Origin: an uncultured Clostridia bacterium | GTDB taxonomy: Bacteria > Bacillota > Clostridia > Christensenellales > Borkfalkiaceae | Reading direction: 5' to 3' | Assembly (NCBI GenBank): GCA_947627565.1 | Contig: CANQWO010000002.1 | Location: 1-64,000, forward strand | Length of the DNA: 64,000 nucleotides | Shown here: positions 1,801 through 61,384 of the stretch, one piece after another | Position numbering within the stretch: position 1 is the stretch's first letter | Layout: every line of letters begins with the position of its first letter | Position numbers and translations under genes: made by a program | Notes under the pieces: generated by a model | What the model was told of the DNA's origin: nothing | Seen by the model: only the letters and a program-made list of their open reading frames with translations | The model's database searches: none

Positions 1801-3336
1801 TCACTCCCATTCGATGGTTGCGGGGGGCTTCGAAGTGATATCGTAGACGACGCGGTTGGCGTGCTTCACTTCGTTGGTGATCCGCGTGGAGACCTTTTCG
1901 AGAACTTCAAACGGGATCCGCGCCCAATCGGCCGTCATCGCGTCTACGCTCGTGATGGCGCGAAGCGCAATGACGTTTTCATAGGTCCTGAAATCGCCCT
2001 GTACGCCCACCGTCTTGCTGTCCGTCAGGACGGCGAAATACTGCCAGATCTCCCGTTCGAGCCCCGCCTTTGCGATCTCGTCGCGGAAGATGAAATCGGC
2101 CTCGCGAAGCGTTTCGAGTTTTTCCCGCGTGACCTCGCCCATGATGCGAATGGCGAGGGCAGGTCCCGGACATGGTTGCCTCCAAACGACTCTCTCGGGC
2201 AGTCCGAGCGCGAGCCCGACCCGACGGACTTCATCCTTGAAGAGGTCGCGGAGGGGCTCGACGATCCCCTGAAAGTTCACCTTCTCGGGAAGGCCGCCCA
2301 CGTTGTGATGGGACTTGATGACCGCGCTCTTCCCCTTCCCGCTCTCGATCACGTCGGGATAGATGGTGCCCTGCACCAAAAAATCCGCCGCGCCGATCTT
2401 CTTCGCCTCCCTTTCAAAGACGTCGATGAACAGTTTTCCGATGATGTGCCGCTTCTTCTCGGGATCGGAGACGCCGCGCAGGGCGTCGAGAAAGAGGTCG
2501 GCGGCATCCGCCTTCACGAGGTCCATGCCGAGCCCGTCGCGGAAGACGGACATGACCTCCTCCGCTTCATTCTTGCGCAGGAGCCCGTTGTCGACAAAGA
2601 CGCAGGTGAGGCGATCCCCCACCGCTCTGTGCACGAGCGTGGCGGCGACGGCGGAATCCACGCCGCCCGACATGGCGCAAATGACCCTCCCCGTGCCGAC
2701 GCGCGCCCGGATGGCCGCGATCTGCTCCTCGGCAAAGCCCGCCATGGTCCAATCGCCCCGCGCGCCGCAGACGCGGTAGAGAAAATTCTTCAGAAACGCA
2801 TTGCCGTACTCCGAGTGCACGACCTCGGGATGGAATTGGATCCCGTAGATCTTTTCGCCGATGTTGCCGTAGACGGCGACGGGGCAATCGTCCGTCGCGG
2901 CGAGCACTTCATAGCCCGCGGGAACGGCCGAAATGTAGTCGGTATGGCTCATCCAGCAGACGCTTTCCGAAGGGATCCCCTCGGACATGGGGGCCTCGTT
3001 TTTGATGTGGAGGGTGCATTTGCCGTATTCGCTTTTCGGGGCGCGGCCGACGGCGCCGCCCAAAGTCGCCGCGATGAGTTGGGCGCCGTAGCAGATGCCG
3101 AGAACGGGAATGCCGAGCCTTAAAACCTCCTCGCCGACGCGGGGCGCGCCCTCCTCATAGACGCTGTTCGGCCCGCCCGTGAAGATGATGCCGATGGGCG
3201 CGTAGGCCCGAATGGCTTCTGCCGTCATGTCGCAGGGTTTGAGGTCGCAATAGACGCCGAGATCGCGCACCCTTCTTGCGATCAACTGATTGTACTGCCC
3301 GCCGAAATCGAGCACGAGCACGCGCTGGTGGTTCAT
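1801..3336 (-). CDS. guaA: GMP synthase (glutamine-hydrolysing)
   Basis: [44 protein letters not shown]-terminal [12 protein letters not shown]; start with RBS ggaggg. Confidence 0.98.
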
Positions 3337-5589: not shown

Positions 5590-6246
5590 ATGAAAAAAAC
5601 AGCTTTTGTACTCATACTGCTTCCGCTGCTCATGCTATTCGGCGCATGCGGCAGGACCTACGACTACACCGCGCATCTCTCCGAGGTCCGGCGCGACATC
5701 TTCCGCGCGGAGACCGAGGCGTTTACGCTCACGCTCTCCTGCATCGAACGCGAACATCCCTATGCCTCCGACGGCGTCACCTGCCCGATCTCCCGCTCCA
5801 TGGAGGTCGTTCTCGTGCCGGCGGACCGCGGCGACGCGTCGTATCGCGTCTTCCTCGCGGGCGACGCGGCCTGGGGCGGCGAAATGTCCAAACGCAACAT
5901 CGAGGACGATTGGTACTACTCCGAGAGCATCGAGGTATTCCCCGAAACGAGCGTGTCTCTAAGCGTGGAGCGGAACGGCGAAACGACGGAAATTTCGGCG
6001 ACCTCCGTCAAAAACGAGGATACCATGTCCGCGGAGGAGGCGTTGAAAATCGCCGTCGAGCACGAAAAGGAGGCCATCAAACGGATGACGGCCGACGGCG
6101 CATTTCAGGGAGAATTTCGCGTCCGTCTTCTGAGGCGGGAAGTCAACTATTACTATGTCGGCATCGTCTCCAAAGACGGCAAGACCATCTCGCTGCTCCT
6201 CGGCGCCGAGAGCGGAGAAGTCCTCGCAAGGCGCGAAGCCTCTTGA
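5590..6246 (+). CDS. Hypothetical lipoprotein
   Basis: MKKTAFVLILLPLLMLFGACGR lipobox. Confidence 0.7.
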   Translation: MKKTAFVLILLPLLMLFGACGRTYDYTAHLSEVRRDIFRAETEAFTLTLSCIEREHPYASDGVTCPISRSMEVVLVPADRGDASYRVFLAGDAAWGGEMSKRNIEDDWYYSESIEVFPETSVSLSVERNGETTEISATSVKNEDTMSAEEALKIAVEHEKEAIKRMTADGAFQGEFRVRLLRREVNYYYVGIVSKDGKTISLLLGAESGEVLARREAS

Positions 6247-6300: not shown

Positions 6301-7191
6301 GTGCTTTCGGTGCGATTGAAAACCATTCGGCGGTTGCGCGTCGCGACCGCCGTCCTGCTTGCGATCTTCATCTTTTTGTTTGCATGCGATCTGCTCTTCG
6401 TCTGCGCCGCGCTCACGGTGGACCGGACGGCAAGGGTCACGCCTTCGTATGAAAAAATCGACCTCGAACCCATCCTCGAAAAGCCGCGCGCGGAGTGGTC
6501 GGACGACGATTTTGCCGTTCTCTCCCGCCAGACGGGGATCCTGCTCCGCGAGGCGTTCGACGGACTTGAAGCCGACGAGATCCGCGCCTTCCAGGACGCA
6601 TTTTTCTTCGAGGGCGACGTGGAACACGAGGAGGTCGCGGCGGGGCTCGTCTATCACGATATCCTCATCGATCCCGCGGACGGACGCACGTTCTATGCCC
6701 CCATCGTCGCGCTGGAGCCGGGCGACGTTTTGATCAGCTCGACGAGCCATCTCTTCGGGTGGCGCCACGGACATGCCGCCCTCGTTCTGACTTACGAGCG
6801 GCTGTTGCAGTCGGCCGTCATCGGCACCAACTCCTCGATCTCGAATTTCGTCGACGGCAACGGCATCGGTTGGTTTACGAGCGCCTCCAACTTTATGGTC
6901 CTCAGGCTCAAGGGCGCGGACGCCGATGCGCGCCGGGCCATCGCGGAGGAAGCGGAAAAGGATCTCGTCGGCGTGCCCTACCACTTCACGGCGGGTATCT
7001 TCACGCCGAAGGATCAAGGCACCTCGCCCACCGATACGTATTGCTCGCATCTCGTCTGGCAGGCCTTCAAGAACGCGGGCTACGATCTCGACGCCGACGG
7101 CGGCCCGTGCTGCACGCCGCGCGACATCGCGAACTCCTCCCATCTCGAAGTCGTGCAGACTTACGGCTTCGACATCGACAAGGGGTGGTGA
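6301..7191 (+). CDS. YiiX/permuted NlpC-P60-like cysteine hydrolase with N-terminal TM
   Basis: GWRHGHAALVL ... TYCSHLVWQAFKNAGYDLDADGGPCCTPRDI resembles permuted papain-fold His/Cys motifs; start is GTG, with an alternative GTG at 6310. Confidence 0.65.
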   Translation: MLSVRLKTIRRLRVATAVLLAIFIFLFACDLLFVCAALTVDRTARVTPSYEKIDLEPILEKPRAEWSDDDFAVLSRQTGILLREAFDGLEADEIRAFQDAFFFEGDVEHEEVAAGLVYHDILIDPADGRTFYAPIVALEPGDVLISSTSHLFGWRHGHAALVLTYERLLQSAVIGTNSSISNFVDGNGIGWFTSASNFMVLRLKGADADARRAIAEEAEKDLVGVPYHFTAGIFTPKDQGTSPTDTYCSHLVWQAFKNAGYDLDADGGPCCTPRDIANSSHLEVVQTYGFDIDKGW

Positions 7192-7227
7192 TCGCAGACA
7201 TGGTATGGGCAAATGACGTCAATGGCA

Positions 7228-7298: not shown

Positions 7299-8408
7299 TC
7301 ACGCCATAAACTCGGTCAAAATCCGGTTCTGGACGTAAAGATACTCGTCCTTGATGCGCGTGGCGTCGCCGAGCTCCTCGAAATATTGCGCGGTGCGGGC
7401 GTAGGCCTCCCTGAAATCCTCCTTCCAATCGCTCCCGAACGCCTTCTTGTACGCCGAGGCCGAGACGCCGAAGACGGTGCGCAGGGCCAGCATCACAAAT
7501 TCGAATTTGGCGTCTTGCTCGCCCACCTCCTCGCTCTCGACGACGGGAAAATAGCCCGACAAAATGCACTTCATATATTCGTCGAGGTCAAACGTGTTGG
7601 TGAATCGCTTGCCGTCCATGAAGGAGCTCGCGGAGACGCCCAGCCCGATGTATTCGCCGCGCTTCCAATAGTTGAGATTGTGGCGGCTGCCGTAGCCATT
7701 TCGAGTGAAATTGGAGACCTCGTAGCGAAGATAACCGTAGTCCCGAAGAAGCGCGCGGCCGTAGTCGTAGAGCGCGGCGACCTCGTCCCCGTCGGGAAGC
7801 TCGCCGTTCAGATAATCGGTATAGATCGGCGTTCCGTCCTCGGGCGTCAGGGCATACATTGAGACATGGGTGGCTCCGTTTTCGTGAACGAGGTCGATCG
7901 TCGCCTTGACGTCCTCCTTCGTCTGCCCCTTGAGACCGAGCATGACGTCGGCGGAAAAGTTGCAGCCCTTCAACAGCTTGCATGCGGAGACGAAGTCGGC
8001 TTTGGTGTGGATGCGGCCGAGGTCTCTGAGCTGTTCGTCGTTGGCCGTCTGCAGTCCCACCGAAAAGCGGTTGATGCCAGCATTCCGATAGATGGCGATC
8101 TTGCGCGCGTCCACCGTGCCCGGATTCATCTCGATGGTGACCTCCGGATCGGCGCTCAGGCGGAAACACTGCCTGATCTGCTTCATGAGCCCCGCAATGT
8201 AGGTCGGATCGACGACGGAGGGCGTCCCGCCGCCGATGTAGACGGTATCGAACGTGCGCCCCGCATACATCTTTCCGCGCTCGGCGACCTCCTTATAGAG
8301 GCAGGCCATATACGCCTCGGCGAAGTTCAGACGGTTGGGAAAGGACGTGAAATCGCAATAGGTGCATTTGTGCTTACAGAACGGAATGTGAAGATAGATC
8401 CCGGACAT
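7299..8408 (-). CDS. hemW: HemW-like radical SAM protein (coproporphyrinogen III oxidase family)
   Basis: MSGIYLHIPFCKHKCTYCDFTSFPN (CxxxCxxC), YIGGGTPS, SVGLQTANDEQLRDLGRIH. Confidence 0.92.
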   Translation of the reverse strand: MSGIYLHIPFCKHKCTYCDFTSFPNRLNFAEAYMACLYKEVAERGKMYAGRTFDTVYIGGGTPSVVDPTYIAGLMKQIRQCFRLSADPEVTIEMNPGTVDARKIAIYRNAGINRFSVGLQTANDEQLRDLGRIHTKADFVSACKLLKGCNFSADVMLGLKGQTKEDVKATIDLVHENGATHVSMYALTPEDGTPIYTDYLNGELPDGDEVAALYDYGRALLRDYGYLRYEVSNFTRNGYGSRHNLNYWKRGEYIGLGVSASSFMDGKRFTNTFDLDEYMKCILSGYFPVVESEEVGEQDAKFEFVMLALRTVFGVSASAYKKAFGSDWKEDFREAYARTAQYFEELGDATRIKDEYLYVQNRILTEFMA

Positions 8409-8420
8409 GGGGTGCTCCTT

Positions 8421-8738
8421 TTATGTGCGGGACGCGCCGTCCCAGAAATATTTTTGTAGATCGACGCGGCCGTCTTCGACCTCGACGCCCTCGGCGCGAA
8501 GCAATGCGGCCTGGATCTCCATGCCGCCGAAGGCAAAGGCGGGCGCGAGCCGCCCCTCGCGGTTGACGACCCTGTGGCAGGGGATGACGACGGGCGTGGG
8601 ATTGCGGTGCAGGGCGTTTCCGACCTGCCGCGACGCCTTCGGATGGCCGATGGCGCGCGCAATCATGCCATACGTCGTGACCTTCCCCTTGGGCACGCGG
8701 GAGACGACTTCATACACGGCTTCATAGAAATTGCTCAT
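8421..8738 (-). CDS. MGMT/Ogt-family (methylated-DNA cysteine methyltransferase-like) protein
   Basis: VPKGKVTTYGMIARAIGHPKASRQVGNALHRNPTPVVIPCHRVVNREG; PCHRV active-site motif; RBS AGGAGG before MSNF. Confidence 0.9.
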   Translation of the reverse strand: MSNFYEAVYEVVSRVPKGKVTTYGMIARAIGHPKASRQVGNALHRNPTPVVIPCHRVVNREGRLAPAFAFGGMEIQAALLRAEGVEVEDGRVDLQKYFWDGASRT

Positions 8739-12071: not shown

Positions 12072-12316
12072 GGTACCTCCAAAAATTTTGTAAAAAATAA
12101 GGACGCTCCAATATGGAACGCCCGCAGAGAGTATCCCATATTGTTGCGTCACAATTGAATTTTCCCGGTTTTGTAAGCGGAAAAAAGGATACACCTATGC
12201 TTAGGTTGTAGCCGCCTACAAAAACCTATTCAATTATGACGCATGTTCAGTATACCACGTTTGAGGGCAATTTGCAAGCATTCCGCGGGAAAAACAGAAA
12301 ATTTCCGCGAGACGGG

Positions 12317-12345
12317 TTGCATTCCCCGAAAAAAGGGTGTATACT
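12317..12345 (+). promoter_or_regulatory. Sigma-A type promoter, TTGCAT-17 bp-TATACT
   Basis: ttgcattccccgaaaaaagggtgtatact, 7 bp upstream of ATG 12353. Confidence 0.55.
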
Positions 12346-12352
12346 TAGAGCC

Positions 12353-13093
12353 ATGAAAACTTTTTTAACGCGCCTCCCCGTCGCGCATCGGGGACTGCAT
12401 GACAGCGAAAAACCCGAGAACTCCCTCTCCGCCTTCCGCGCGGCCGTAGAGCACGGCTATGCCATCGAGACGGACGTCCGCTTTACCAAAGATAAGCGGC
12501 TCGTCGTCATGCACGACGACAATTTGCAGCGCATGACGGGTGACCCGCGGACGGTATCGGAGTGTACCATGTCCGAGATCAAAGCTCTCAAATTCGTCGG
12601 AAGCGACGAAACAATCCCCACCGTTGCGGAATTTTTGGAGGCGGTGAACGGGACCTCGCCGCTGCTCATCGAGATCAAGGATATGCCGGGCGTCAAGGGC
12701 AAAGAAGTTGCGAAAGCGCTCTCGGAGGCGATGAAGGGTTATGGCGGCGAGTATGCCGTGCAGTCCTTCAATCCGCTCTATGTGAAGGCCTACAAAAAAT
12801 TGCATCCCGCAGTGATGTGCGGCGTGCTCGCCTCGACGGGGATGTATCAAAAGAGCGATCCCCTCATCTGGCGGACGAAAATGTATCTCGTTTCCCGCCT
12901 CAAGCTGAATTTCTATATCAAGCCCGACTTTGTCAGCTACGACATCTGGTCGCTGCCGCAAAAATGGGTGACGAAATTCAAGGGGATCAAGCTCGCGTGG
13001 ACCATCGGGTCGCCGGAGCTGGAAGAGAAAGCGCGGAAGTATGTCGACAACATCATTTTCGAAAATTATTGCGCGGAAATTCCCAAACCGTGA
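12353..13093 (+). CDS. Glycerophosphodiester phosphodiesterase
   Basis: LPVAHRGLHDSEKPENSLSAFRAAVEHGYAIETDVRFTKDKRLVVMHDD, canonical GDPD. Confidence 0.95.
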   Translation: MKTFLTRLPVAHRGLHDSEKPENSLSAFRAAVEHGYAIETDVRFTKDKRLVVMHDDNLQRMTGDPRTVSECTMSEIKALKFVGSDETIPTVAEFLEAVNGTSPLLIEIKDMPGVKGKEVAKALSEAMKGYGGEYAVQSFNPLYVKAYKKLHPAVMCGVLASTGMYQKSDPLIWRTKMYLVSRLKLNFYIKPDFVSYDIWSLPQKWVTKFKGIKLAWTIGSPELEEKARKYVDNIIFENYCAEIPKP

Positions 13094-13136: not shown

Positions 13137-13189
13137 CGAGCTTTCGGCAAAAACGGGCATACCATGTCCGCGATCGTCCGTTCAAAATG

Positions 13190-13222
13190 AAAACCGCACA
13201 GACAAATCGTCTGTGCGGTTTT
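13190..13222. terminator. Bidirectional terminator hairpin
   Basis: AAAACCGCACAGAC-aaatc-GTCTGTGCGGTTTT between convergent genes. Confidence 0.8.
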
Positions 13223-13237
13223 GTATTCGATAAAATG

Positions 13238-16200
13238 TCATTCCGTGACAAGCGCGATGCTGTGTTTCTCCTCATCGATCGTGAAGTGGCGCCCGGATTT
13301 CGTTGTCACATTCAACAAACCGTCTACCTCTTCCGTCGATTCGGCGAAGTATGCGGCGCCTTGGAAGACAACCAGCTCGACCGTCTTCTTCCCGTCCGCC
13401 ACGGAATAATCCGCATAGGTATTCTCCTCTGCGCCGTTTATGGTGAACACGGTCTTCTCGGTGACGGTGGCCGTATCGAGGAACGGCACTTCGAGCACTT
13501 CCTCCGCGCCCTCCGTCGTCTTTTCCGTCAGTTGGATCACATAATAGGTGGCTCCGGTTCTGATCTGCTGATCGTCGTAGGTGCGGACAATGTGCGTGAT
13601 GACCAAATTTTCGCTGTCGAAATAGGCCTCGGTGGACGCAATATCCTCGCCGTTCTTCTTGAGTTTTACATCGTAGACGCCGCCGACTCTGACTCTTTGG
13701 CTGTCGGTGGCGATCACGCGCTCGATCTCCATCTCATAGCCGCCGTCCGCCGTCAATGTCTCCGCACGGGTGAAGGCAAAGGCGCTATAACCGTATAAGC
13801 CGAAGATGCTTGCAAATGTGCCGTCGATGGTGAAGTGGAGCCGATAGATCGCCTGATCGCTGCCCGTGACTTCCACGGTATAGAGCCCGTTTTCCGCAGT
13901 GTATTTTGCGTCCTTGAAGCCGATGACCTCGCCCTTGGAATCAACAAACCCGGAATAGGCTCCGAACTCGCCCGTGGCCGTTTGGGAAGTGACTTCGCCG
14001 GCTTCGTTGTAGGTATCCAGGATCGTGATCAAACCGAATACATTCTGCGGTTGCGTGAGCCCCTGCATCGCATAGATGTAGACGCTGGCCAGATAGAGAA
14101 CGGACGGAAGCTGCCGTTGAAGGTACATCGAACGCAGCGTGTAGGTATTGTTGGAGACGCCGTCGGCCGTCTCGCCCGAATACTCCACTTCGAGCGCAAA
14201 GCGATATGAGCCCAAGATGAGGGTCATCGTCGTCGTTTCATCCTCATTCAACGTGCGTTCGACATAGCAAGAAGTCGATCTCCCGTTGAAGACGACGCTC
14301 CCGCTCACTCTGAACTCCGTTGCGCCCGTGGGGGTGAAGGTGAGATTTTCGAGCTTCGCCGTGCTGCCGTCGCTCATCGGGATGGGATAGGCGTCCTGAT
14401 TCCCCTCGGCGCGCGTGAACATCAGTTGATAGCCGTTGGTGAGGTAATACGTCTTATCCTTCCAGGTGATCGAGGAACCGAAGGCGCCGAACTCCTCCTC
14501 AACAAATCCGTATTCGTTGGCATCGGGATCGCTGCTATCGCGATGATACAGATAGACCTTCTGATTCTTGACATTATAATAGTATTGCGTCTCTCCGCCG
14601 TAGATCATGAAGCCGTAGCTGTAGAAGACCATCGCATCGAGATCCTTGGTAAAGTAGCTGCGGGGCGTGAAGTCGCTCGGAACGGCAGTGCCCTTTTCGA
14701 GATCGTAGGTATAGATGCAGGCATCCGACCCCTCACGATTCGCATAATAGAGCAAGCTATCGTTGATTAACACATACCGGCCGAGTTCGGGAATCCCATA
14801 TTCGTCATAGCGGATGGCATTGCCGAAGCCGTCGAACGCAATCACCGAGAGTTCCGCTTCGTTGACGAGAATGGTGACGATCTCCTCGTTGTATACAATG
14901 AACGTGTTGTAGAGGGTGGTGGAATCGGAACCGATCGTAATGGTGCTCCGGATCCCGCGGATGGTGTGTTCTTCCGATCCTACTTTGTAAACAAGGGTGA
15001 AGAGCTGCGTATTCCCGGACACCTCATAGGTATAGGTGCCGTGATAGACTTCCTCACGTTCGCCATCCTTGATCGTAAAGACGGTGAAATTGCCATGGCC
15101 GTCGAGTTCAAGGGACTCATCCCCGATGCTCTGATTGCGCATGAGAAGATAGGAGGCGAACTCGCTGCCGCGCCGCGCATAGGTTCTGTCCTCGGCGATG
15201 TCGAAATACATCGAACCTTCACTCGTGAGGAAGCAGATCACCTTCTTTTCCTTGTCGCGGACATAGTAGACGCCGTTCAGAATGTTGCCGCCGACGGAGA
15301 GGCTCGCATTGTACCCGAAGCCATCGAGTGTGAGCGTGCCGAAGCCCGTCTCCGTGCTACTGTATTCGCCCTCAAAGTCGCCGTTGTGCTTCGTGAAGAG
15401 TCTGGTGTTGTTGATTTGGATGAGAAGGAAATCGAACTCCTTCTTTTCGCCGCTCTCGTCCCCGTTCAGCGTCCCCGTGAAGTGATAGATGACGCCATCG
15501 AAGGCCGTTTTTCTGCCTGTGTTTTCAAAGGTCCCGTAATAGCTCGTGACGACGGCGTCCTCGCCCTCGGTTTCGGCGGGCGTGACGATGGTGTAGACTG
15601 CGCCGTCCTTGCCGTCGAAGTCGATGTATTCGAGCCGATCCGCAGCGCCGTTCTCGTTCATGCAATACACGGTGCCGAGCAGTGTGCTGAGAATGATGAA
15701 GGTCTGATCCTCATCGTTCATCTCGAGAGAGAGCGTTCCCGAAGAAGTGACGATCACAAGGATGTTCCCGCTGCGCGTGTAGGAGCCGACGATCTCCTGC
15801 CTCACGCCGCCTGCATCATAGGTGAGCACCGCAAACCCGGCGATCAAGGAGAGTTCGGCGGAGAGGCTCGTCTCCCCCTCTTGCTCGTGATAGACGGTAT
15901 CGTAGGTCTCCGCTTCGCCCTCTTTGGGGGTCACGGAATACCAATAGGCGATGGGGTAGGTGCCGGAACTTGATATCGAGATGTACGCGGTATCGAAGAC
16001 GATCTCCGCAAGATCAGAGATGTCGATGGGCGTACTCAGATAGGAGACGTCGTCGAAATACTTGGAAACGGTGGCATGCCGCCTTCCGTCCTCCTCGGTA
16101 TAGGTGCCTTCGGCGACCTTCACAAAGACGCGCGTAGTCGTGCTGGCGGTGCTGATCGCATAGAGGGAGAAGTCCCCTTCCTCGCTCTCGTTGAGCACGA

Positions 16201-18277
16201 TGAGAGGCGCATAGTGGAAGTAGACGCCCTCCTGATCGTCCTTATAATAATATTCGCTGTAACCGAGAGCCTTCTTGTCGAAGTGATACTCGACGACAAC
16301 TTGATTTTCCACCAACGTCTGCGTAGCATAGACGTGGAACATCAACGTCTGCGTGGAGGTGTAGACGGTGACGATATATCCGCCGAACGCAGAGGACGTG
16401 TAGGTATAAGATCCGTTTACGATGGAATCGCCCGAATATGTGGCATTGTAGAGGCCGTCAAGCGTGAGCGTCTCCGCGCCCGAGGTGAAGGTGTTGTCGA
16501 ACGACGCATTATAGCTGGTATATGCCCTCCGGCCCGAAACATTTACGATCTTGCAGGTATCGAGAAGTCTGCCCGTGCTGGTATCGTAAAGATAGAACGT
16601 ATCGGCCTGCTCGGCGAAACGGTAGTAGTAATTCGCAATCGAGGTCCCCATATTCATGGCCGCGACGCCGTATCCGTTGAACGTGAGCGCATTGAGATTT
16701 TGCGGGTAGACCATGGGCGCACCGCGATACATCGCGGCATATTCGAGAATGCCGATCGAATAAGACGCTTCGTCGCGGATGCTGAAGACGGGGGTGTTCA
16801 CATTGTTGACGGTGGCGATCCCCTGCATGAACACGAAGGATGTGCCGGCGAGCTCGCCGCTCGTAAACGTTGCCTCGTATTCTGCGCCCTCACGGTAGGC
16901 ATACGTTCCCTTGGATTCGGCAATGACTGTCTTGCCGCCCTGCCCGTTGTCTTCATTTCTGGTATATGTGACGTTGTTGAGCTCGTCGAGGATGAGCACG
17001 GTATTGGAATCCAGCCCGGTCCCCATCACATAGAGCGAAAGATTGTGCTGACGGGCCGTCACATAATAGGCGAAGGTCCCATTCTCATCGTTGAAAACCC
17101 CTTCTAAGATGACCTTCTGCGCATCGTCATAGAAGAGGAAACCGTTGGTGATCGCGTCGTACTCGCCCTTGAAGAAGACGCCCGCACGTTCGAGATAGAC
17201 CTCCTCGGCGTCTGCCGAGAAGTGATAGATGTAGTCGATGCTCTCGAAATTATCGATGTACCCCTTGGTCCAGATGCCATAGAGGAACACGTCCTCTTCG
17301 AGCGGGAAATAATAGAGGTCCTCATCCTCCCCGCCGAAGAGGAAGGTGTTCAGATAGTTGGAGGGGATGAGCTCCTCGTCCGCGGCATCGCCCGTGGCGC
17401 TCTTGCTCCATCCCGTCAGGCAATACCCGCTCGCATAGAAGTTGCTTTCGGGAAGAAGCACTTCCGCGCCGTATAGGCCGCTGATCTCGGCCGTCTCCTC
17501 CTCGCCGTCCGGATAGTTGGCATAGAGGAGGACGCGGATCTCCGCGCGGTCGAAATACATCCTGAACAGGTTCTCGGAGGGAGTTTCGCTGAGCACTTTT
17601 TCCGTGAGATCTCCCTCGTGCTCTGTGGCATTGAACCCCGCGGGTGCGACTTCTTCGGGATCGAGCACAAAGGCAGAGCTACTCCCATACGCATACCCAA
17701 CATAGTTTTCCTCTCCCTTCTCGTAGGTAGCGAGATCGTCGAGGCTCTGGAGATAGCGCTCCACGGTATAGCCGACCATGTAATGCGCAGTAAGCGTGAT
17801 GTCCTCGGCGGGCATCGTATCCGTGGCGCCGAGCGCCTTGCCGGAATAGAGCCACTCCCCGAACCGGAAGTTCTCCTTGACGGGTACATAATTCTCGAGC
17901 GTAGTGCTCAGATTCGTCCCCGGTTTCAGATAGAAAGACGCGGAGGAGACGGAGCCGCCCGCAACATCGAGGGTGACAAGGTACATCTTCTCCCATTTGG
18001 CATAGAACGTGCGGCTTTTCTCGACCGTCTGCTTCTCCGAAACGGGATCCCCGGTGCATTCTGCGTCTTCGAACCAGCCTTCGAAGCTGTATCCTTCGCG
18101 CTCGGGAACGGGGAGCGTGACCTCCTCTCCCTTTGTCACTTTCATGCTTGCGATCGCATTGCCGCCGTTCGTCTCGAATTTGAACGTGATGCCTCCCGCG
18201 CATGCCGCAATGGCAAAGCACAGGACTGCGAGCGCTGTCATCAAGACAAGGGCAAGACCTTTTCTCATCTTTTTCAT
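13238..18277 (-). CDS. Giant (1679 aa) lipoprotein with Listeria-Bacteroides (InlB B-) repeats and many beta-rich repeat units
   Basis: MKKMRKGLALVLMTALAVLCFAIAACAGG lipobox; FETNGGNAIASMKVTKGEEVTLPVPEREGYSFEGWFEDAECTG; RBS AAGGAG. Confidence 0.85.
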   Translation of the reverse strand: MKKMRKGLALVLMTALAVLCFAIAACAGGITFKFETNGGNAIASMKVTKGEEVTLPVPEREGYSFEGWFEDAECTGDPVSEKQTVEKSRTFYAKWEKMYLVTLDVAGGSVSSASFYLKPGTNLSTTLENYVPVKENFRFGEWLYSGKALGATDTMPAEDITLTAHYMVGYTVERYLQSLDDLATYEKGEENYVGYAYGSSSAFVLDPEEVAPAGFNATEHEGDLTEKVLSETPSENLFRMYFDRAEIRVLLYANYPDGEEETAEISGLYGAEVLLPESNFYASGYCLTGWSKSATGDAADEELIPSNYLNTFLFGGEDEDLYYFPLEEDVFLYGIWTKGYIDNFESIDYIYHFSADAEEVYLERAGVFFKGEYDAITNGFLFYDDAQKVILEGVFNDENGTFAYYVTARQHNLSLYVMGTGLDSNTVLILDELNNVTYTRNEDNGQGGKTVIAESKGTYAYREGAEYEATFTSGELAGTSFVFMQGIATVNNVNTPVFSIRDEASYSIGILEYAAMYRGAPMVYPQNLNALTFNGYGVAAMNMGTSIANYYYRFAEQADTFYLYDTSTGRLLDTCKIVNVSGRRAYTSYNASFDNTFTSGAETLTLDGLYNATYSGDSIVNGSYTYTSSAFGGYIVTVYTSTQTLMFHVYATQTLVENQVVVEYHFDKKALGYSEYYYKDDQEGVYFHYAPLIVLNESEEGDFSLYAISTASTTTRVFVKVAEGTYTEEDGRRHATVSKYFDDVSYLSTPIDISDLAEIVFDTAYISISSSGTYPIAYWYSVTPKEGEAETYDTVYHEQEGETSLSAELSLIAGFAVLTYDAGGVRQEIVGSYTRSGNILVIVTSSGTLSLEMNDEDQTFIILSTLLGTVYCMNENGAADRLEYIDFDGKDGAVYTIVTPAETEGEDAVVTSYYGTFENTGRKTAFDGVIYHFTGTLNGDESGEKKEFDFLLIQINNTRLFTKHNGDFEGEYSSTETGFGTLTLDGFGYNASLSVGGNILNGVYYVRDKEKKVICFLTSEGSMYFDIAEDRTYARRGSEFASYLLMRNQSIGDESLELDGHGNFTVFTIKDGEREEVYHGTYTYEVSGNTQLFTLVYKVGSEEHTIRGIRSTITIGSDSTTLYNTFIVYNEEIVTILVNEAELSVIAFDGFGNAIRYDEYGIPELGRYVLINDSLLYYANREGSDACIYTYDLEKGTAVPSDFTPRSYFTKDLDAMVFYSYGFMIYGGETQYYYNVKNQKVYLYHRDSSDPDANEYGFVEEEFGAFGSSITWKDKTYYLTNGYQLMFTRAEGNQDAYPIPMSDGSTAKLENLTFTPTGATEFRVSGSVVFNGRSTSCYVERTLNEDETTTMTLILGSYRFALEVEYSGETADGVSNNTYTLRSMYLQRQLPSVLYLASVYIYAMQGLTQPQNVFGLITILDTYNEAGEVTSQTATGEFGAYSGFVDSKGEVIGFKDAKYTAENGLYTVEVTGSDQAIYRLHFTIDGTFASIFGLYGYSAFAFTRAETLTADGGYEMEIERVIATDSQRVRVGGVYDVKLKKNGEDIASTEAYFDSENLVITHIVRTYDDQQIRTGATYYVIQLTEKTTEGAEEVLEVPFLDTATVTEKTVFTINGAEENTYADYSVADGKKTVELVVFQGAAYFAESTEEVDGLLNVTTKSGRHFTIDEEKHSIALVTE

Positions 18278-38494: not shown

Positions 38495-38991
38495 AGTCTC
38501 TCTCCTTTCTGAATTTTTTATTTCACTTTATTATATCCGACCCCGCGCTCATATGTCAAGCAAAAGGGTCGGGAAACTGCATAAATATTTATTCATTTTC
38601 TATAAAGATTTATGAAGTTTGGCATAAGCGATTCTTATACAAAAAGAAAAACGACTGTTTTTTGCCGTTTTTCGGGCGAAAAAGGCCATTTTCTGAAGAA
38701 AATTGAATAGTTTCCGACAAAAAAGCCCAAAAAGAACAAAACGCACAAAATATGTGCTTCATTCAACAAAAATACAGTCAGGTTCCGCAAAAACGGGCAA
38801 CCGGGCGAGCTTGATCCCATTATAATCTTGATCCCATTATAATATTGTCGAACATGCAAGCGGCGCCGGCTAAAAGACCGGAGAGCATGCCACCCCACCG
38901 TAGCGCAGGTTGCGAGCCGCAGTGCATGAAGGACGGATTTGTGTTTTCATCGAAAACGGGCATACCATGTCCGCGATCGGCCGTTCAAAAT

Positions 38992-39027
38992 GCAAGAAAA
39001 AAGTCCCTGCAGGGACTTTTTTCTTGC
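38992..39027. terminator. Perfect 36-nt palindrome, likely terminator of the 39072 gene
   Basis: GCAAGAAAAAAGTCCCTGCAGGGACTTTTTTCTTGC. Confidence 0.7.
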
Positions 39028-39071: not shown

Positions 39072-40151
39072 TCAGAAGCGGACACGCACGCGGCGCGGCG
39101 TTTCGTCTTCCGTCGCAGTGAGTCCGGCGGGACGGGTCACGGTCGTCGTCCCGTAGTCGTAATACACCTGCGAAATCTTTGCGCTTCTGGTCGAAGGCGT
39201 CGGCTGCGTTTCGCCGCCCTGGCCGGGCGTACCGGATTCATTCTCGCCGCCTTGGCCGGGCGTGCCGGATTCATTCTCGCCGCCCTGACCGGGCGTACCG
39301 GATTCGTTCTCGCCGCCCTGACCGGGCGTGCCGGATTCGTTCTCCCCGCCCTGACCGGGCGTGCCGGATTCATTCTCGCCGCCTTGGCCGGGCGTACCGG
39401 ATTCGTTCTCCCCGCCTTGACCGGGCGTGCCGGATTCGGTCCCCTCGGTAGGTTGGCCGTCCCGCGTCTTCGCCGCCGCCTGTTCCGCGGTCACGATGCA
39501 GGCGCTGGGCTTGCCGCCGTTGATCTTGAGAATGACCTTCGAAGGCGCGCTCAGATCCTCGCCGAGCAGGCTGCCGAATGCGCCGCTGAGCTCCGTTTTC
39601 ATTTCGGTGAGGCCGGAAGCCGTCGCAAGATAGCCCTTGTCGGCGTCGCTATACGAGAAATTGGCGAAATTGTCCTTGGCGAACGTCAAGCCGCCCGCGA
39701 CGGAGAAGATCTCGGGGAGATCGCTCTTTTCGTAAGTCTCGCGGTCCCACTCCGACCAGTCCTTCTCGTCGGCCTCCTTGTAGCGCTGCCAAAAGGTGAC
39801 TTCTTTGCCGTCCACTTCGAGATAACCCTCCGCTTCGTATGCGGTCTTCCCGCCTTCGGCGACGCGCATGGTGAGGCTGATCTTATCGGCAGTAAAATGA
39901 TAAACGTAAGTGGCAACCTGAGACATGGTAGTGCCGTTTTCCGTCTCGGACATCGTGACGACGGATTTTACGCTGTAATTGGGTTCGGCGGTAAAGGCGG
40001 CATTCCACGCCGTTCTATCCACCTTCTCGCTCGTGATGGAGACGGGGTCGGTGTTTTCCGTAATGTCGGCGGTCTCATCGTTTCCGCCGCAGCCGGCGAG
40101 CGAAATGCAGAGCGCGCTCGCGACAAGCATCGGGATCAAGATTTTTTTCAT
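39072..40151 (-). CDS. Lipoprotein with C-terminal GGENESGTPGQ tandem repeats
   Basis: MKKILIPMLVASALCISLAGCGGND lipobox; (GENESGTPGQG)n near the C-terminus. Confidence 0.8.
   Translation of the reverse strand: MKKILIPMLVASALCISLAGCGGNDETADITENTDPVSITSEKVDRTAWNAAFTAEPNYSVKSVVTMSETENGTTMSQVATYVYHFTADKISLTMRVAEGGKTAYEAEGYLEVDGKEVTFWQRYKEADEKDWSEWDRETYEKSDLPEIFSVAGGLTFAKDNFANFSYSDADKGYLATASGLTEMKTELSGAFGSLLGEDLSAPSKVILKINGGKPSACIVTAEQAAAKTRDGQPTEGTESGTPGQGGENESGTPGQGGENESGTPGQGGENESGTPGQGGENESGTPGQGGENESGTPGQGGENESGTPGQGGETQPTPSTRSAKISQVYYDYGTTTVTRPAGLTATEDETPRRVRVRF
39212..39435. repeat. 33-bp tandem repeat, about 7 units, encoding GGENESGTPGQ
   Basis: Repeated ccgggcgt(a/g)ccggattc(a/g)ttctc(g/c)ccgcc(c/t)tg(a/g). 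Confidence 0.9.
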
Positions 40152-48304: not shown

Positions 48305-49210
48305 ATGAAAGCCAAACGGTCTCTCGGCATCCTGTTCATCCTCGGCGCGGCGGCATGCTTCGCGCTGATGAATTATTTCGTGAACGCGGCGGGCGAACTG
48401 CCCGTCATGCAAAAGGTCTTTTTCCGCAACCTCATCGCAACGTTCATCGTCTTTTTCCTGCTCCTGCGCGACAAACAGAAGTTCCGCATCAAGAGCAGGG
48501 AGTGCCTAATTTGGCTGTTTTTGCGCGCGGCCGTCGGATTCTTGGGCGTTGTGCTCAATTTTTACGCCATCGACCACATCGGAAGCATCTCCGACGCCTC
48601 CATCCTCAACAAACTTTCCCCATTTTTCGCCATTCTTTTTTCGGTCTTCCTCCTCCGCGAGAAGCCGAAAATCCCCGAGATCATCTTCGTCCTCATCGCC
48701 TTTGCGGGCGCCATGTGCGTCGTCAATCCGCGCTTCGACATGCAGGCCATCCCCGCGCTCGCGGGATTTCTGAGCGGCGCCGCGGCGGGATTTGCCTATA
48801 CGTGCGTCCGCGTGCTCGGGATCAAGGGCGAGCGCGGCAACATTACCGTCTTCTTCTTTTCGGCGTTCTCGACCGTCGTCTCGCTGCCCTTCTTCATCGC
48901 ATTCTACACACCCATGTCCGCGATGCAGCTTCTCTTTCTCATTTTATCGGGCGTCGCGGCCGCGGGCGGGCAGTTCTTTATCACCGCCGCCTACCGCATG
49001 GCGCCGGCCAAGGAGATCGCTGTCTTCGACTACGCGCAGGTCCTCTTCGCCGCCCTCCTCGGCTACTTCCTCCTCGACCAGATGCCCAAACCGCTCAGCA
49101 TTGCGGGATATTGCATTATCCTCGTCGCCGCGGTCGGGCGCTGGCTCTATAATCTCGTCCGCGACAGGCGGGAAAACGCCGAAAAAGTCCGTGAAAATTT
49201 CAGTCGGTAA
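48305..49210 (+). CDS. EamA/DMT-family transporter
   Basis: MKAKRSLGILFILGAAACFALMNYFVNAAGELPVMQKVFFRNLIA; ten-TM pattern. Confidence 0.92.
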   Translation: MKAKRSLGILFILGAAACFALMNYFVNAAGELPVMQKVFFRNLIATFIVFFLLLRDKQKFRIKSRECLIWLFLRAAVGFLGVVLNFYAIDHIGSISDASILNKLSPFFAILFSVFLLREKPKIPEIIFVLIAFAGAMCVVNPRFDMQAIPALAGFLSGAAAGFAYTCVRVLGIKGERGNITVFFFSAFSTVVSLPFFIAFYTPMSAMQLLFLILSGVAAAGGQFFITAAYRMAPAKEIAVFDYAQVLFAALLGYFLLDQMPKPLSIAGYCIILVAAVGRWLYNLVRDRRENAEKVRENFSR

Positions 49211-50645: not shown

Positions 50646-51113
50646 CTATGCGAGCGGGACGAGGCTCGGCGTCACCCGATCTCCGTGCACGACGAGATAG
50701 GCGTAACTCGGATCGGAATAGGCGCCCAAAGCGCCGGGGTTGACGAGCGTGATGCCACCCATGTCCGCGATGTCGGCGCGGTGCGTGTGTCCGTAGAGCG
50801 CGACCGTACACCCGAGCTCCTTGGCGCGGGCGGCAAGTTTTCCGAGCCCGCTCTTGACGCCGTAGCGGTGTCCGTGACAGCAGAAGATCCGGACGCCCTC
50901 GACTTCCAGCACGCACTCGTCTTCGCCGTAAGCGAAATCGCAGTTGCCGCGGAGCACATACGTCTTTTCGGGATATTCCGAAAAGATGGGCCGCATGTCC
51001 GCCGAACCGTCGCCGAGGTGGACAATATAATCGTTCTCCGCAAACAAGCGGCGCACGCGGTCGATGGCGCCGTAGCGGCTGTGGGAATCGGAAATGACGA
51101 CCAACGTTTTCAA
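50646..51113 (-). CDS. YfcE/MJ0936-family metallophosphoesterase
   Basis: MKTLVVISDSHSR; IVHLGDGSADM; LRGNCD; CCHGHRYG; YGHTHRADI. Confidence 0.94.
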   Translation of the reverse strand: MKTLVVISDSHSRYGAIDRVRRLFAENDYIVHLGDGSADMRPIFSEYPEKTYVLRGNCDFAYGEDECVLEVEGVRIFCCHGHRYGVKSGLGKLAARAKELGCTVALYGHTHRADIADMGGITLVNPGALGAYSDPSYAYLVVHGDRVTPSLVPLA

Positions 51114-51685: not shown

Positions 51686-53406
51686 ACTTCCTCCAACGGC
51701 ACAAAGCCGAACTTCTCGAGGTCGAAGAGCCCCCTATCGAGCAATTTGAGCTTGGGAATGACGGCGAGCGATAAAAAGACGAGCGTCATAAAGGGTTCGT
51801 AGCACTCCTTCACGCCCATTTTCCGCGCCTTTTCCGCAATGGCGCCCGTGCGCGCGATGACTTCGGAGGCCTCCGCCGAGCTCATGAGTCCCGCGATGTC
51901 GAGCGCAAAGACGTCTTCCTCCGTCTCGGAGACGAGCGCCATGCCGCCGCCCGCCTTTTCGAGCAGGCCGACGACGCGGACCATGGCTTCGTCGCTGTCG
52001 CCGAGGACGACGAGGTTGTGGCTGTCGTGCGCAACGGAGATGCCGATGGCGCCGCCGTGCAGGCCATACCCCTTCACGAGCCCGAGGCCGATGTTCCCCG
52101 TGGCATGGTGCCGCTCGACGACGGCAAGTTTGCAAAGATCGGTGCCCCGCACCGTGAGTTCGCCCGCGGGCGTCTCGGCAAACGTCTCGCCCGTGTAGAG
52201 GCCGTAGGGCTGCACTTCCATGGCGCGCAATTTCCCGCCGCGGCAGACGATCCGAAAGTCCTCCGCCTTGACGGGCTTCACGCGGACGGTACTCCGAACC
52301 TCCGCGGGAAGATAGCGCGACGAAGTGCCGAAGAGCGCCTTGCCGCCCTCCGCGACGAGCACGCCGCGCTTGAAGACGGCGGAGACGTGGAACCGCTCCA
52401 TGTCGTCGATGAGCACGATATCGGCAAAATAGCGGGGCGCAATGGCACCCATGTCCGCGAGACGGTAGCAATCGGCGACGTTGATGGTCGCCATCGCAAC
52501 GGCATATTCGGCGGGCAGGCCGCTCGCGACGAGACGGCGGAGCGCGTCGTCGAGATGGCCGCGGGTCGCGAGGTCTTTGGCGTTCTTGTCGTCGGAACAG
52601 AGAATGTAGCGGCGGAAGTTGTAGCTGTCGATTGCGTCTTTGGCGTCGGCAATGTTGTTGACGGAGGAACCGCAGCGGATCTGGACATACATCCCCCGCG
52701 CGACCTTGTTCCTGCACTCCTCCGCGGAGAGCGATTCGTGGTCGGTGAGAATGCCCGCGCAGCGGTACGCATTGAAGCCGTCACCGAAAACGCCGGGGGC
52801 ATGTCCGTCAACGGGCTTTCCGAAACGGTGCGCCGCCTCGATCTTACGGAGCACATCCGCGTCCCCCGAAAGCACGGCGGGGAAGTTCATCATCTCGCCG
52901 AGACCGAAGAAGAGCCCGCGTGAAAGTTCCTTTTCCGTCTCCCTGCCGTCGATGACCGCGCCGCTCGTCTCGAAGGGCGTGGCGGGGACGCAGGACGGGA
53001 GCTGCAAAAAGACGTCGAGCGGCTGCACGCCGCCCAAGCTGAGGCGGGAAAAGGCCTCCTTGATATACTCGGCCCCCGCTACGCCACAGACATTGACGAT
53101 CTCATGCGGATCGGCGACGATGGCGGAGGTGCCGCGGGGCACGGCGAGCGAAGCGAACGCCTCGGGCGAGAGCATGGAGCTCTCGACATGGATGTGGGAA
53201 TCGATGAGCCCGGGGATGGCGATTTTGCCGCCGGCGTCGTATACCGCCGCGGCCGTATACCCCGTGCCGATCCCGACGACGCGGCCGTCCGCAATGGCGA
53301 TATCGCCCTCTTCGAGTTTGCCCGTGAACACGTTGAAGACGCGGGCGTTTTGAATGACAAGATCGCTCTTTTCGCGCTTCATGGCGCAATCAATGAGATG
53401 TTTCAT
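51682..53406 (-). CDS. ade: Adenine deaminase
   Basis: AIPGLIDSHIHVESSMLSPEAFA; SVAHDSHNLVVLGDSDEAM; start chosen at 53406 within ORF 51682..53466. Confidence 0.95.
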   Translation of the reverse strand: MKHLIDCAMKREKSDLVIQNARVFNVFTGKLEEGDIAIADGRVVGIGTGYTAAAVYDAGGKIAIPGLIDSHIHVESSMLSPEAFASLAVPRGTSAIVADPHEIVNVCGVAGAEYIKEAFSRLSLGGVQPLDVFLQLPSCVPATPFETSGAVIDGRETEKELSRGLFFGLGEMMNFPAVLSGDADVLRKIEAAHRFGKPVDGHAPGVFGDGFNAYRCAGILTDHESLSAEECRNKVARGMYVQIRCGSSVNNIADAKDAIDSYNFRRYILCSDDKNAKDLATRGHLDDALRRLVASGLPAEYAVAMATINVADCYRLADMGAIAPRYFADIVLIDDMERFHVSAVFKRGVLVAEGGKALFGTSSRYLPAEVRSTVRVKPVKAEDFRIVCRGGKLRAMEVQPYGLYTGETFAETPAGELTVRGTDLCKLAVVERHHATGNIGLGLVKGYGLHGGAIGISVAHDSHNLVVLGDSDEAMVRVVGLLEKAGGGMALVSETEEDVFALDIAGLMSSAEASEVIARTGAIAEKARKMGVKECYEPFMTLVFLSLAVIPKLKLLDRGLFDLEKFGFVPLEEV

Positions 53407-53484: not shown

Positions 53485-54447
53485 TCAGGCTCTGTTTTTT
53501 CCCCGTAAGGACTTTACCCAGTCGTCCAATCTCTTGTCGCAGTAGACGCGATGGCACCACTGAACAATGATTTCCGCGGCAAGGGAAACCGCGGCAAAAA
53601 TCAGATATGGATACTGCACCGCATACGCCGAAGCGTCCCCGTATAAGATCATGGAGGCGAAAAACGATTGGAGATTTTCATGCGCGGCAAGGCCCAAGAA
53701 CAAAATGAACAATCCCCAAAGCGCCATGCGAAAAAGTTCCGCCGCGATCGCAGCCCCCTGCCTTTCCGGAAATTCGGCCCAATAGAAGGCGGACATGATC
53801 TCCTTCTCTCCGTCCTTCGCCTGCAATTCAAATCCTGTTCCCTTCTCGAACATCTCCACATTCTTTCGCTCGAGAACGGATATCGGCTGAAGGTGCTTAT
53901 CGCGGATCCACCCGCACATGCAAAATTTATGATAGCACCTTTCCGCTGTTGAAAGCGCCGTGGAAACGAAAAACGCAACGCAGGCTCCTATGATCAATCC
54001 GTCGATCGTCTTCAATTTTTCATTGGCATGAAAGAGGGCTTCGAGCGCATTCGGGCCACCCATGTCTGACTTCCACCCATTAAAAATTATGTACCCGACG
54101 ACCAAGAGGATTCCGGCCAAGGCAAATATTCCGCCGGATAACCACTCCAAAAGTTTCTTCGTCGTCTTCGCCGAAGCGTTTGCATTTGTCCATAATTTAC
54201 GGAAATTCTCGGCCTTTGGGTAGCCCAATTTCGACGTCTCGTCGGGCTTGGGCGCAGAGCCGAGCCCCATGCCGCAATTGGGGCATACCGAGAGACCGGG
54301 CGGAACTTTGGAGCCGCATTCGGGGCAAACCGTCTGCTCGGGCAACGGGACGGGAAATCCCGGGGCAGAAAATATTCTGCATCCGCAATACACGCAGTAA
54401 TTCGCATTTTCCGGAATAAAATTCCCGCAATGAGGGCATTGGATCAT
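53485..54447 (-). CDS. Double zinc-ribbon membrane protein
   Basis: MIQCPHCGNFIPENANYCVYCGCR ... VCPECGSKVPPGLSVCPNCGMG; several TM segments. Confidence 0.75.
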   Translation of the reverse strand: MIQCPHCGNFIPENANYCVYCGCRIFSAPGFPVPLPEQTVCPECGSKVPPGLSVCPNCGMGLGSAPKPDETSKLGYPKAENFRKLWTNANASAKTTKKLLEWLSGGIFALAGILLVVGYIIFNGWKSDMGGPNALEALFHANEKLKTIDGLIIGACVAFFVSTALSTAERCYHKFCMCGWIRDKHLQPISVLERKNVEMFEKGTGFELQAKDGEKEIMSAFYWAEFPERQGAAIAAELFRMALWGLFILFLGLAAHENLQSFFASMILYGDASAYAVQYPYLIFAAVSLAAEIIVQWCHRVYCDKRLDDWVKSLRGKNRA

Positions 54448-55490: not shown

Positions 55491-57569
55491 TTATTTGAGT
55501 TTTCTTCGCATGCGGAGGGCGTTGAGAACCGCAAGGAGCATGACGCCCACGTCGCCGAAGACCGCCGCCCAAATGGGAAGCGAAAACAGCGCGGTCGCCG
55601 TCGCGACAAGAGAGACGGCCATCAACGCGACCTTGACCGCGATGGAGCAGACAATGTTTTCCGTCACGATACGGCGCGTCTTTTGGGCGCCCCGAAACGC
55701 CTTGGGAAGCGCGGTGAGGCGGTCGCTCACGAGGACGAAATCGCTCGCCTCGATCGCGGCGTCGCTCCCGAGCCCGCCCATCGCAACGGAGACATCCGCC
55801 TCCGCCATGACGGGAGTATCGTTGATGCCGTCGCCGACGTAGAGCAGCGGGCCGTAAGATTTGAGCGCCTGTGCCCGCACGGGCTTTTCCGCCGGCAAAA
55901 GCCCCGCATGGAGCTCATCGACGGGAAGTTCCCGCAGCACCGCCCGGGCGCGTTCCTCGGAATCGCCCGTGAGAACGGCAATGTGCCGGACGCCCGCCCG
56001 CTTCATCTCCCAAAGCGCGTCGGCCGCCTCTTCGCGCAATTTATCGCAAATTTTGACATATCCCAAATACGTCCCCTCTTCCGCGACGTAGATCGTGAGA
56101 TCGCTGCCCGTCTCCTCTTCGCACGCGACGCCGTAAGTTTCCATAAGGCGGTGGCTTCCGACGAGCACATGTTTTCCGTTGACAACGGACGCGATACCCA
56201 TGCCCGCAATCTCCTCGCAGGAATCGGCGGAGGGGCATACCATGTCCGCGAACGCCTGTGCGAGCGGGTGGGAAGAGAGCTTTTCGCTTGCTGCGGCGAG
56301 ATTCAAGACATGGTCCCCGCCTTTTACGTCACCGATCGTAAATCTTCCCTCGGTCAGTGTGCCCGTCTTATCGAATGCGGCGGTCTTTACGCGGGCGAGA
56401 AGGTCGAGCCCGACCGCGCCCTTCGTCAAGACGCCCTCCCGCGCGAGATTGCCGACGCCGGCAAAATAGGTGAGCGGCACGGAGATAATGAGCGCGCAAG
56501 GACAAGAAATGACAAGAAATTCAATGGCCGGCGTGAGCCATTTCACGAAGTCGAAGTTCTGGAAGAGCGGCGGCACGACGGCGATCAGCACGGCGAACAG
56601 CACGACGATGGGCGTATAGATCCTGGCGAACCGCGTGATGAATTTTTCGGGTTTCGCCTTCTTGGCGGAGGAATTTTCCACCATGTCGAGAATTTTGGCG
56701 ACGGCGCTCTCCGAGGCGGGGCGAATGACTTCGGCGCGCACGGCGTTGCCCTCGTTGACGCACCCCTCCAGCATCTCGTCTCCCGCGGCGACTTCTTTAA
56801 GATACGCTTCCCCCGTGAGAGATTTGGTATCCAAGGAAGTCGCGCCCTCCGTAAGGCGGCAATCGACGGGCACTTTGTCGCCCTTCCTGAGCAGGATGAG
56901 CGACCCCACCTCGAGCTCCTCGGGGGCGACTTCGCGTTGGTTGTCCCCCTCGATGAGAATGGCCGAACTGCTCTTGAGCGCCAAGAGGCGCGTGATCGCC
57001 CCGCGGGACGAGCCGACGGCGACGGATTGCAGCAGTTCGCCGATCTGGTAGAGCAGCATGACGGCCGCGGCCTCCATGGTCTCCCCGATGGCGATCGCAC
57101 CGATCGCGGCGACCGTCATGAGCATGTTCTCGTCGAGAAGGACCGAGGGATGAAAACCGTTTTTGAACGCGCGCGGGACGCTTAGAACGACGTTCCACAA
57201 GACACCCCACCCCGCGGCGGCAAAGGACGCGAGAAAGAAGGCGAACGAGACCCACTTGCCCACGCCGACGATCTCGAGGATGAGGGCGGGCACGAAAAAG
57301 GCCGCGGAGATCGCAATGGAGAGGAGCTCCTTGAGATGGCGCTCTCGTTTGACGGAAAGACCCGCTTCGACGATCTCCACTTCTTCGAAATGGGAGATGA
57401 CGTCGACGGCAAGGCCGAGCGCCGCGTCGCTTTCATATTCGAGCGAAACGCGCTGGTTGATGAAATCGGCATGCGCTTCCGAGATCCCCTCGAGCGCCTC
57501 GAGTTCCTCCGAGAGCTCCGCGGCACAGGCGGCGCAGTCGAGATTTTTGATACGGATTACTTTCTTCAT
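55491..57569 (-). CDS. P1B-type heavy-metal ATPase (CadA/ZntA-like)
   Basis: NLDCAACAAELSEELE HMA motif; ISCPCALIISVPL; AFDKTGTLTEG; VGDGINDTPVMAEADVSVAMG. Confidence 0.95.
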   Translation of the reverse strand: MKKVIRIKNLDCAACAAELSEELEALEGISEAHADFINQRVSLEYESDAALGLAVDVISHFEEVEIVEAGLSVKRERHLKELLSIAISAAFFVPALILEIVGVGKWVSFAFFLASFAAAGWGVLWNVVLSVPRAFKNGFHPSVLLDENMLMTVAAIGAIAIGETMEAAAVMLLYQIGELLQSVAVGSSRGAITRLLALKSSSAILIEGDNQREVAPEELEVGSLILLRKGDKVPVDCRLTEGATSLDTKSLTGEAYLKEVAAGDEMLEGCVNEGNAVRAEVIRPASESAVAKILDMVENSSAKKAKPEKFITRFARIYTPIVVLFAVLIAVVPPLFQNFDFVKWLTPAIEFLVISCPCALIISVPLTYFAGVGNLAREGVLTKGAVGLDLLARVKTAAFDKTGTLTEGRFTIGDVKGGDHVLNLAAASEKLSSHPLAQAFADMVCPSADSCEEIAGMGIASVVNGKHVLVGSHRLMETYGVACEEETGSDLTIYVAEEGTYLGYVKICDKLREEAADALWEMKRAGVRHIAVLTGDSEERARAVLRELPVDELHAGLLPAEKPVRAQALKSYGPLLYVGDGINDTPVMAEADVSVAMGGLGSDAAIEASDFVLVSDRLTALPKAFRGAQKTRRIVTENIVCSIAVKVALMAVSLVATATALFSLPIWAAVFGDVGVMLLAVLNALRMRRKLK

Positions 57570-61039: not shown

Positions 61040-61384
61040 TGTGTTTCCTCCTGCAAACATCTTGTGCAGGTGGAAAAAGTTTATACGCGCTTGCCTTCAA
61101 AGTCAGCAAGCTTGCGGGGCGGCGTGGCAAATTGGGCCGCGCACGGCGGAAGTCAATTCCGCCTAACGCACATGACTTAATTCACGAATTTTTCCTTTAC
61201 GGAAAAATTCCGTGAGCGGAAAACTCCTTCGTTTTCATTTTTTCTTAGCCGCACAAACCTTGCTGTTTCATCAGACAGTAAGCGCGAAGCGCAAATCGGG
61301 GGAAAAAACAAAAAGTGTGATTTTTGTTTTTTCAGTGAAACAGGAAATCTTTGACCTCATTTCCTATACCCATGTCTGCGATCA

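Follow-up and report, generated by a model that had tools for sequence, protein, structure and literature searches.

The question raised by this locus is what a 40-bp sequence between two genes of an uncultured gut Clostridia bacterium represents: a discrete repeated element joined to a terminator, or one instance of a more general signal. The window, that is, the whole stretch of 64,000 nucleotides that was analysed, belongs to contig C2 of a draft genome (G000; 1.80 Mb, 63 contigs, 99.6% complete). The 40-mer (copy A, Table 1) lies between two convergent genes: 12236–13093 on the plus strand, assigned to GDPD by Pfam PF03009, and 13238–18277 on the minus strand, encoding a surface protein. 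Its partner (copy B) lies downstream of gene 39072–40151, which is on the minus strand. The original prediction described copy A as the full-length form of a dispersed motif, fused to a hairpin terminator, with trimmed versions in coding sequences.

Copies A and B were identical at 39 of 40 positions on the same strand, as had been predicted. No such match was obtained in 100 dinucleotide shuffles. The identity exceeded that of other pairs of strong sites, which averaged 19.3 positions (sd 3.2). The only other pair as alike was at ~94403–94405 and ~96166–96168 of C2; these sites lie ~1.8 kb apart in a local duplication with near-identical flanks. The sequences flanking copies A and B differ, and a third close relative of the 40-mer was found at C11:12019.

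The perfect 14-bp hairpin directly after copy A was also confirmed (AAAACCGCACAGAC-AAATC-GTCTGTGCGGTTTT). It probably terminates transcription of the minus-strand gene 13238–18277, and together with a GC-rich hairpin 3′ of the GDPD stop codon, the probable terminator of that gene, it encloses copy A. The perfect 17-bp inverted repeat adjoining copy B is likewise the probable terminator of gene 39072–40151. Since gene ends lie there, the hairpins beside A and B fit terminators of the neighbouring genes. A fusion of the motif to a terminator was not supported across the sampled part of the genome: a hairpin was present just downstream of 5 of 52 intergenic sites, compared with 8.4% of random intergenic positions. 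The hairpins beside the motif are incidental.

The 40-mer is an instance of a degenerate, asymmetric and non-palindromic motif of ~45 bp, with the consensus GAC-n3-A(A/T)A-n-G-n-GG...(A/C)CCATGTC(C/T)G(C/A)GA...C..AA. Core-anchored profiles showed conservation well beyond the core, as predicted: GAC (−19 to −17), A(A/T)A (−13 to −11), G (−9), and GG (−7/−6). The GG is followed by (A/C)CCATGTC(C/T)G(C/A)GA and then by weak positions as far as +23. The inner octamer is variable (GGCATACC, AGGCACCC, AGGGTACC, and ACGGGGGC), and the spacing is fixed. Conservation fades gradually from the CATGTCCG core in a fixed layout without edges, which does not agree with a full-length discrete element. In its graded fall-off and fixed layout, the motif resembles a site bound by a protein more than an insertion that was duplicated.

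Hundreds of copies of the motif are dispersed in the genome. The 16-bp core CATACCATGTCCGCGA with at most one mismatch had 40 matches in G000, compared with 0 for the reversed control; CCATGTCCGC occurred 161 times (control, 2), and MCCATGTCYG occurred 384 times (control, 3). Its words are more over-represented in G000 than those of any other family, and the top over-represented 10- and 12-mers in 435 kb were nearly all motif fragments. Confinement of the 40-mer to two places was thus close to the truth for its full length, which is rare (3 places; an inner 31-mer with at most 3 mismatches had 3 matches genome-wide), and wrong for the motif. An EM-refined matrix drifted to codon periodicity, and a fixed-core profile was used in its place. 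With the 48-column matrix, 807 kb yielded 228 sites that scored above 12 bits, compared with 3.0 with permuted matrices. Above 11 bits, 245 sites were found in the same 807 kb of G000, 24 of them inside the window.

Table 1. Motif sites and hairpins in the window
Feature	Position	Strand	Score or remark
Motif site, coding DNA	2963–3010	−	32.1 bits
Motif site, coding DNA	6003–6050	+	34.4 bits; arms intact
Motif site, convergent gene ends	7176–7223	−	31.7 bits
Motif site, gene start	8383–8430	−	26.4 bits
Motif site inside GDPD coding sequence	12547–12594	+	34.3 bits; arms intact
GC-rich hairpin 3′ of GDPD stop codon	13097–13135		Read in sequence
Copy A, near-ideal motif instance	13150–13189	+	38.0 bits; rank 6 of 245 sites, 807 kb
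Perfect 14-bp hairpin adjoining copy A	13190–13222		Not part of motif
Copy B, top-scoring motif instance	38953–38992	+	41.2 bits; rank 1 of 245
Perfect 17-bp inverted repeat adjoining copy B	38993–39026		Not enriched beside the motif
Motif site, coding DNA	39901–39948	−	24.7 bits
Motif site, coding DNA	48892–48939	+	27.8 bits
Motif site, coding DNA	50739–50786	+	21.7 bits
Motif site, coding, GGGGGC-ATGTCCG variant	52779–52826	+	26.4 bits; G025 orthologous site C2:46347, 12.6 bits
Motif site, coding DNA	54040–54087	+	27.8 bits
Motif site, coding	56178–56225	+	22.1 bits; G025 orthologous site C2:39354, 17.7 bits
Motif site, core GGGCATACC as in A and B	58425–58472	−	33.8 bits
Motif site, coding	60003–60050	+	26.6 bits; G025 orthologous site C2:35534, 25.0 bits
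Motif site	61350–61397	+	29.7 bits

Two further features of the window were observed. Between A and B, 25.7 kb (13230–38950) of this motif-rich contig carry no motif sites; this stretch encodes LRR/InlB-type surface proteins of 936–2975 aa and a MoxR-DUF58-VWA (Bat-like) operon. The Pro-rich gene 39072–40151 contains tandem repeats of ~33 bp at 39215–39400 (GCCGGATTC.TTCTCGCCGCCCTGACCGGGCGT).

Motif sites were found in coding DNA in every frame and both senses, and also between genes. The enrichment between genes was borne out in G000: 28 of 75 strict sites (37%) were intergenic, compared with 8.5% of the DNA (p = 6e-12). Such intergenic sites were common where genes converge and rare where they diverge. 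No intergenic excess was found in another species of the genus (G025), in which the same motif layout was recovered independently. Trimming of the coding copies was not observed; sites in genes keep the same arms, for example at 12569 (34.3 bits) and 6025 (34.4 bits). Taken as a whole, the dispersed motif of the original prediction stood, and the terminator fusion, the trimmed coding copies, and the discrete element did not.

The motif is constrained at the DNA level. For 56 coding sites, the orthologous position in G025 was available, and 26 of these positions also carry a motif site; shifts of 30–60 bp gave 0–1. Codons for the same amino acid were identical at a fraction of 0.71 under the core compared with 0.58 far away (p = 0.001), with codon bias only partly corrected for. 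Site orientation was near random (98 compared with 69 on G025 C1), and spacing was Poisson-like. Because of the near-random orientation and because sites are lost and regained, single sites seem to matter less than the total density across a domain. Four adjacent genes at G000 C1:81700–86257 had 81–89% protein identity to G025 C1:367–371 kb, where 60–70% is usual. This likeness suggests that the genes were exchanged recently; motif sites are present among them.

The density of sites differed strongly among the contigs of G000 (chi2 = 144, p = 1e-26). The genes on the contigs were identified by reading translations; the genomes are draft MAGs, and proximity to the origin was judged by the landmarks dnaA, S10/spc, and parB/parS. 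The density was 0.71 sites per kb on C10 (dnaA, recF, mnmG, and the S10 operon), 0.58 on C7 (spc/alpha operons), 0.54 on C3, 0.47 on C8, and 0.35 on the window contig C2. It was 0.01–0.1 per kb on C4, C5, C6, and C9, which carry ftsZ/mur, mutSL, polA, dnaE, and sugar-utilisation genes, with the lowest value (0.01 per kb) on C5. The pattern predicted in advance from G000 was then compared in five other species, using 20–40 kb around dnaA and 12–40 kb around polA/mutS. The dnaA regions had 67 sites in 179 kb (0.37 per kb), and the polA/mutS regions had 10 in 212 kb (0.05 per kb; p = 5e-14). The motif is therefore restricted to a chromosomal domain in six species. The dense domain has one site per 1.5–3 kb.

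The transition between dense and sparse regions is abrupt. Density was even over 440 kb on G025 C1, which has parB and canonical parS at its left end. On G025 C2, it dropped at ~95 kb, with 26 sites in the first 95 kb and then 2 in 124 kb (p = 5e-8). This edge is orthologous to the edge at ~80 kb of G000 C4; the site at the edge lies within spoIVA, at the same position in the two species. Around spoIVA in G009, the 16-mer matches agreed with such an edge: two lay within 27 kb on the side predicted to be dense, and the next was 88 kb off on the other side. In G030, one 16-mer match lay 11 kb inside the side predicted to be sparse. A smooth origin-to-terminus gradient was rejected by the flat density over 440 kb and the abrupt edge elsewhere; two-state domains fit better. 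Accessory versus core gene class was also rejected as the cause of the site-poor regions; a syntenic core block (C3:59–85 kb) is dense, and the sugar-utilisation contig C5 is empty.

The observed copy numbers of long sites, their confinement to one domain, their conserved positions, and the DNA-level constraint, all regardless of gene function, are best explained by a set of protein-bound sites labelling the domain that contains the origin. On balance, we slightly favour the reading that the 40-mer is a near-ideal 45-bp asymmetric putative protein site with a marking role like that of Noc, SlmA, or RacA sites. A sequence-specific protein would bind ~250 sites (in 807 kb) across the domain containing dnaA, the S10/spc operons, and parB/parS, and would leave nearly unbound a second, almost site-free domain (ftsZ/mur, mutSL, polA) beyond the abrupt edge in spoIVA. 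The bound protein may mark the origin-containing part of the nucleoid. The mark could spatially control a process such as Z-ring placement, as Noc and SlmA do; forespore origin anchoring, as by RacA/RefZ, or domain folding would be alternatives.

Among known systems, the Noc sites (NBS) of Bacillus subtilis are numerous on the chromosome and under-represented near the terminus (PMC4726725). The motif likewise favours the origin side, as judged by landmark genes. However, NBS are ~70 14-bp palindromes with a ParB-family reader, whereas the present sites are asymmetric, 45 bp long, and present in hundreds. The Noc-type ATTTCCCGGGAAAT was absent in the sampled DNA, and no second ParB-type protein was found, with one HTH_ParB each in G000, G009, G016, G025, G002, and G030. 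Because motif-rich species lack a second ParB-type protein and the site is non-palindromic, the motif does not belong to the Noc system. A Noc paralogue as the reader was also rejected, as the sole ParB-type protein of each motif-rich genome is ParB, which is present in motif-less species as well. The TGTTTCACGTGAAACA-type palindrome of parS was not matched; canonical parS sites are separate, at G025 C1:8005 and 8045.

The SlmA sites (SBS) of Escherichia coli are enriched near the origin and scarce in Ter (PMC4117426, PMC4726725). The origin-side enrichment is shared, but SBS are 24–52 palindromes read by a TetR-family FtsZ antagonist, and the present motif is non-palindromic. In Bacillus, RefZ binds RBM sites in the origin region at positions conserved in the genus (PMC6657595), and RacA binds multiple ram sites near oriC (PMC4949633). 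Similarly, the motif sites are concentrated on origin-landmark contigs and keep their positions within the genus, and these Clostridia encode a sigF-like operon and spoIVA. The RBMs are five near-palindromes and ram sites lie mainly within 250 kb left of oriC, whereas the motif has hundreds of sites in a domain of well over 400 kb; it is far more numerous than Noc, SlmA, or RefZ sites. The matS sites of MatP in enterobacteria are also restricted to one chromosomal domain, but they are palindromes marking the terminus, while the present motif is dense beside dnaA.

Position-marking DNA sites have been described in a few model bacteria, mostly as short palindromes numbering in the tens. The motif, from uncultured gut Clostridia, is long, asymmetric, and densely repeated, and its domain ends at a sharp edge. 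We tentatively consider, with somewhat less than even confidence, that it is a new chromosome address code: hundreds of asymmetric 45-bp sites running through genes and intergenic DNA, marking the origin-containing domain up to a sharp conserved edge, gained and lost within the genus, and recognised by a protein that has no relation to Noc, SlmA, RacA, RefZ, ParB, or MatP. A search for the reader gene by local gene content (present in G000 and G025, absent in G012 and G015, in synteny) gave no convincing candidate. If the motif marks the origin domain, it would allow a bacterial macrodomain to be mapped from sequence. Related species that have or lack it would then be a natural experiment for finding the reader protein, and chromosome-position information would constrain protein-coding DNA.

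Several other explanations were weighed. A DNA uptake sequence, a short word built up by biased uptake of kin DNA, is improbable here. DUS/USS have a dispersed core word, graded flanks, and species-variable forms (PMC3630211, PMC1852404), and those of Neisseria and Pasteurellaceae are enriched at terminators (PMC1852404). The dispersal of sites over both strands, within and between genes, A/T-rich graded arms, species-variable abundance, and a ComEC channel in nearly all species of the genus agree with uptake, which predicts species dialects and weakly conserved flanks. However, the pilus/ComG/Tad ATPase (PF00437) is absent above the cut-off in the motif-rich G000, G009, and G016 and marginal in G002. 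It is strong in G012, G001, G003, and G014, which are motif-poor or moderate; this inverse pattern may be chance or biology. Whole core-gene chromosomal blocks are almost without sites, sites are not enriched at terminator hairpins, and the copies number ~0.4k, not 1000 or more. Uptake is disfavoured because the ATPase is missing above the cut-off in motif-rich species and core-gene blocks are nearly site-free. It is similarly unlikely that the sites are operators, bound by a nucleoid-associated regulator or a global transcription factor, and that the domain pattern is a by-product; the intergenic enrichment in G000 would fit, but G025 lacks it, the domain edge is conserved, sites lie in mid-gene in all frames, and divergent (promoter) gaps with sites are rare while convergent ones are common.

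A signal for recombination or segregation that a translocase recognises, such as Chi (AddAB) or KOPS/SRS (FtsK/SpoIIIE), is very unlikely. Signals of this type are 5–8 bp long and strongly polar, whereas the motif is ~45 bp, close to unpolarised, and ends at an edge; its spacing in the dense domain and the slight orientation excess on G025 C1 would be compatible. It is highly improbable that the motif is a mobile or replicative short element (RPE/REP/MITE-like) with full-length intergenic and trimmed coding copies. The likeness of A and B and the close copy on C11 would be expected from such an element, but its discrete edges are missing, conservation is graded, and the layout is fixed around a variable inner octamer; moreover, the flanks of A and B differ, orthologous positions are kept between species, and all frames are tolerated. 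A codon or amino-acid artefact, in which ADMG, MSA, and HVRD peptides are written in preferred codons, has a negligible chance of being right. Coding sites are unequal by frame, most being in sense 0 and antisense 1, as an artefact would produce. The artefact is refuted by the intergenic sites, strongly enriched in G000; in addition, the arms are conserved across frames, and the motif is absent in G012, a sister species of the same GC content. The marking of an origin-containing domain is the preferred reading.

The abundance of the motif varies among species of the genus. The motif with its arms is missing in G012 and G015; the latter had a word count of 52, but its sites lacked arms and it was classed as negative. 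G001 and G019 also count as motif-negative, and G000, G002, G009, G016, G025, and G030 as motif-positive. The absence from related species implies that the function is dispensable or replaceable. In named contigs of a public collection, the exact 16-mer was found mostly in rabbit-gut Clostridia MAGs, where the mean arm score around it was +6.3, compared with −6.3 in unrelated bacteria (p = 3e-10).

Other repeated sequences were noticed in these genomes. The motif-lacking G012 has other dispersed repeats, with CCACCCCCCTACCCC, CCCTCCGTGGGAGG, and TACGTCATTCCG words in 20–60 copies in 316 kb. The palindrome GGCATATGCC occurred 12 times (both strands) in the 180 kb of G015 C2:100–280 kb, compared with 0.7 expected; it was not in the top word list of G015 C1. 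A motif site is located shortly upstream of a T-box-like GGTGGTACCGCG antiterminator at the same place in G000 C27 (L037:1001–1016) and G016 (L061:1501–1516).
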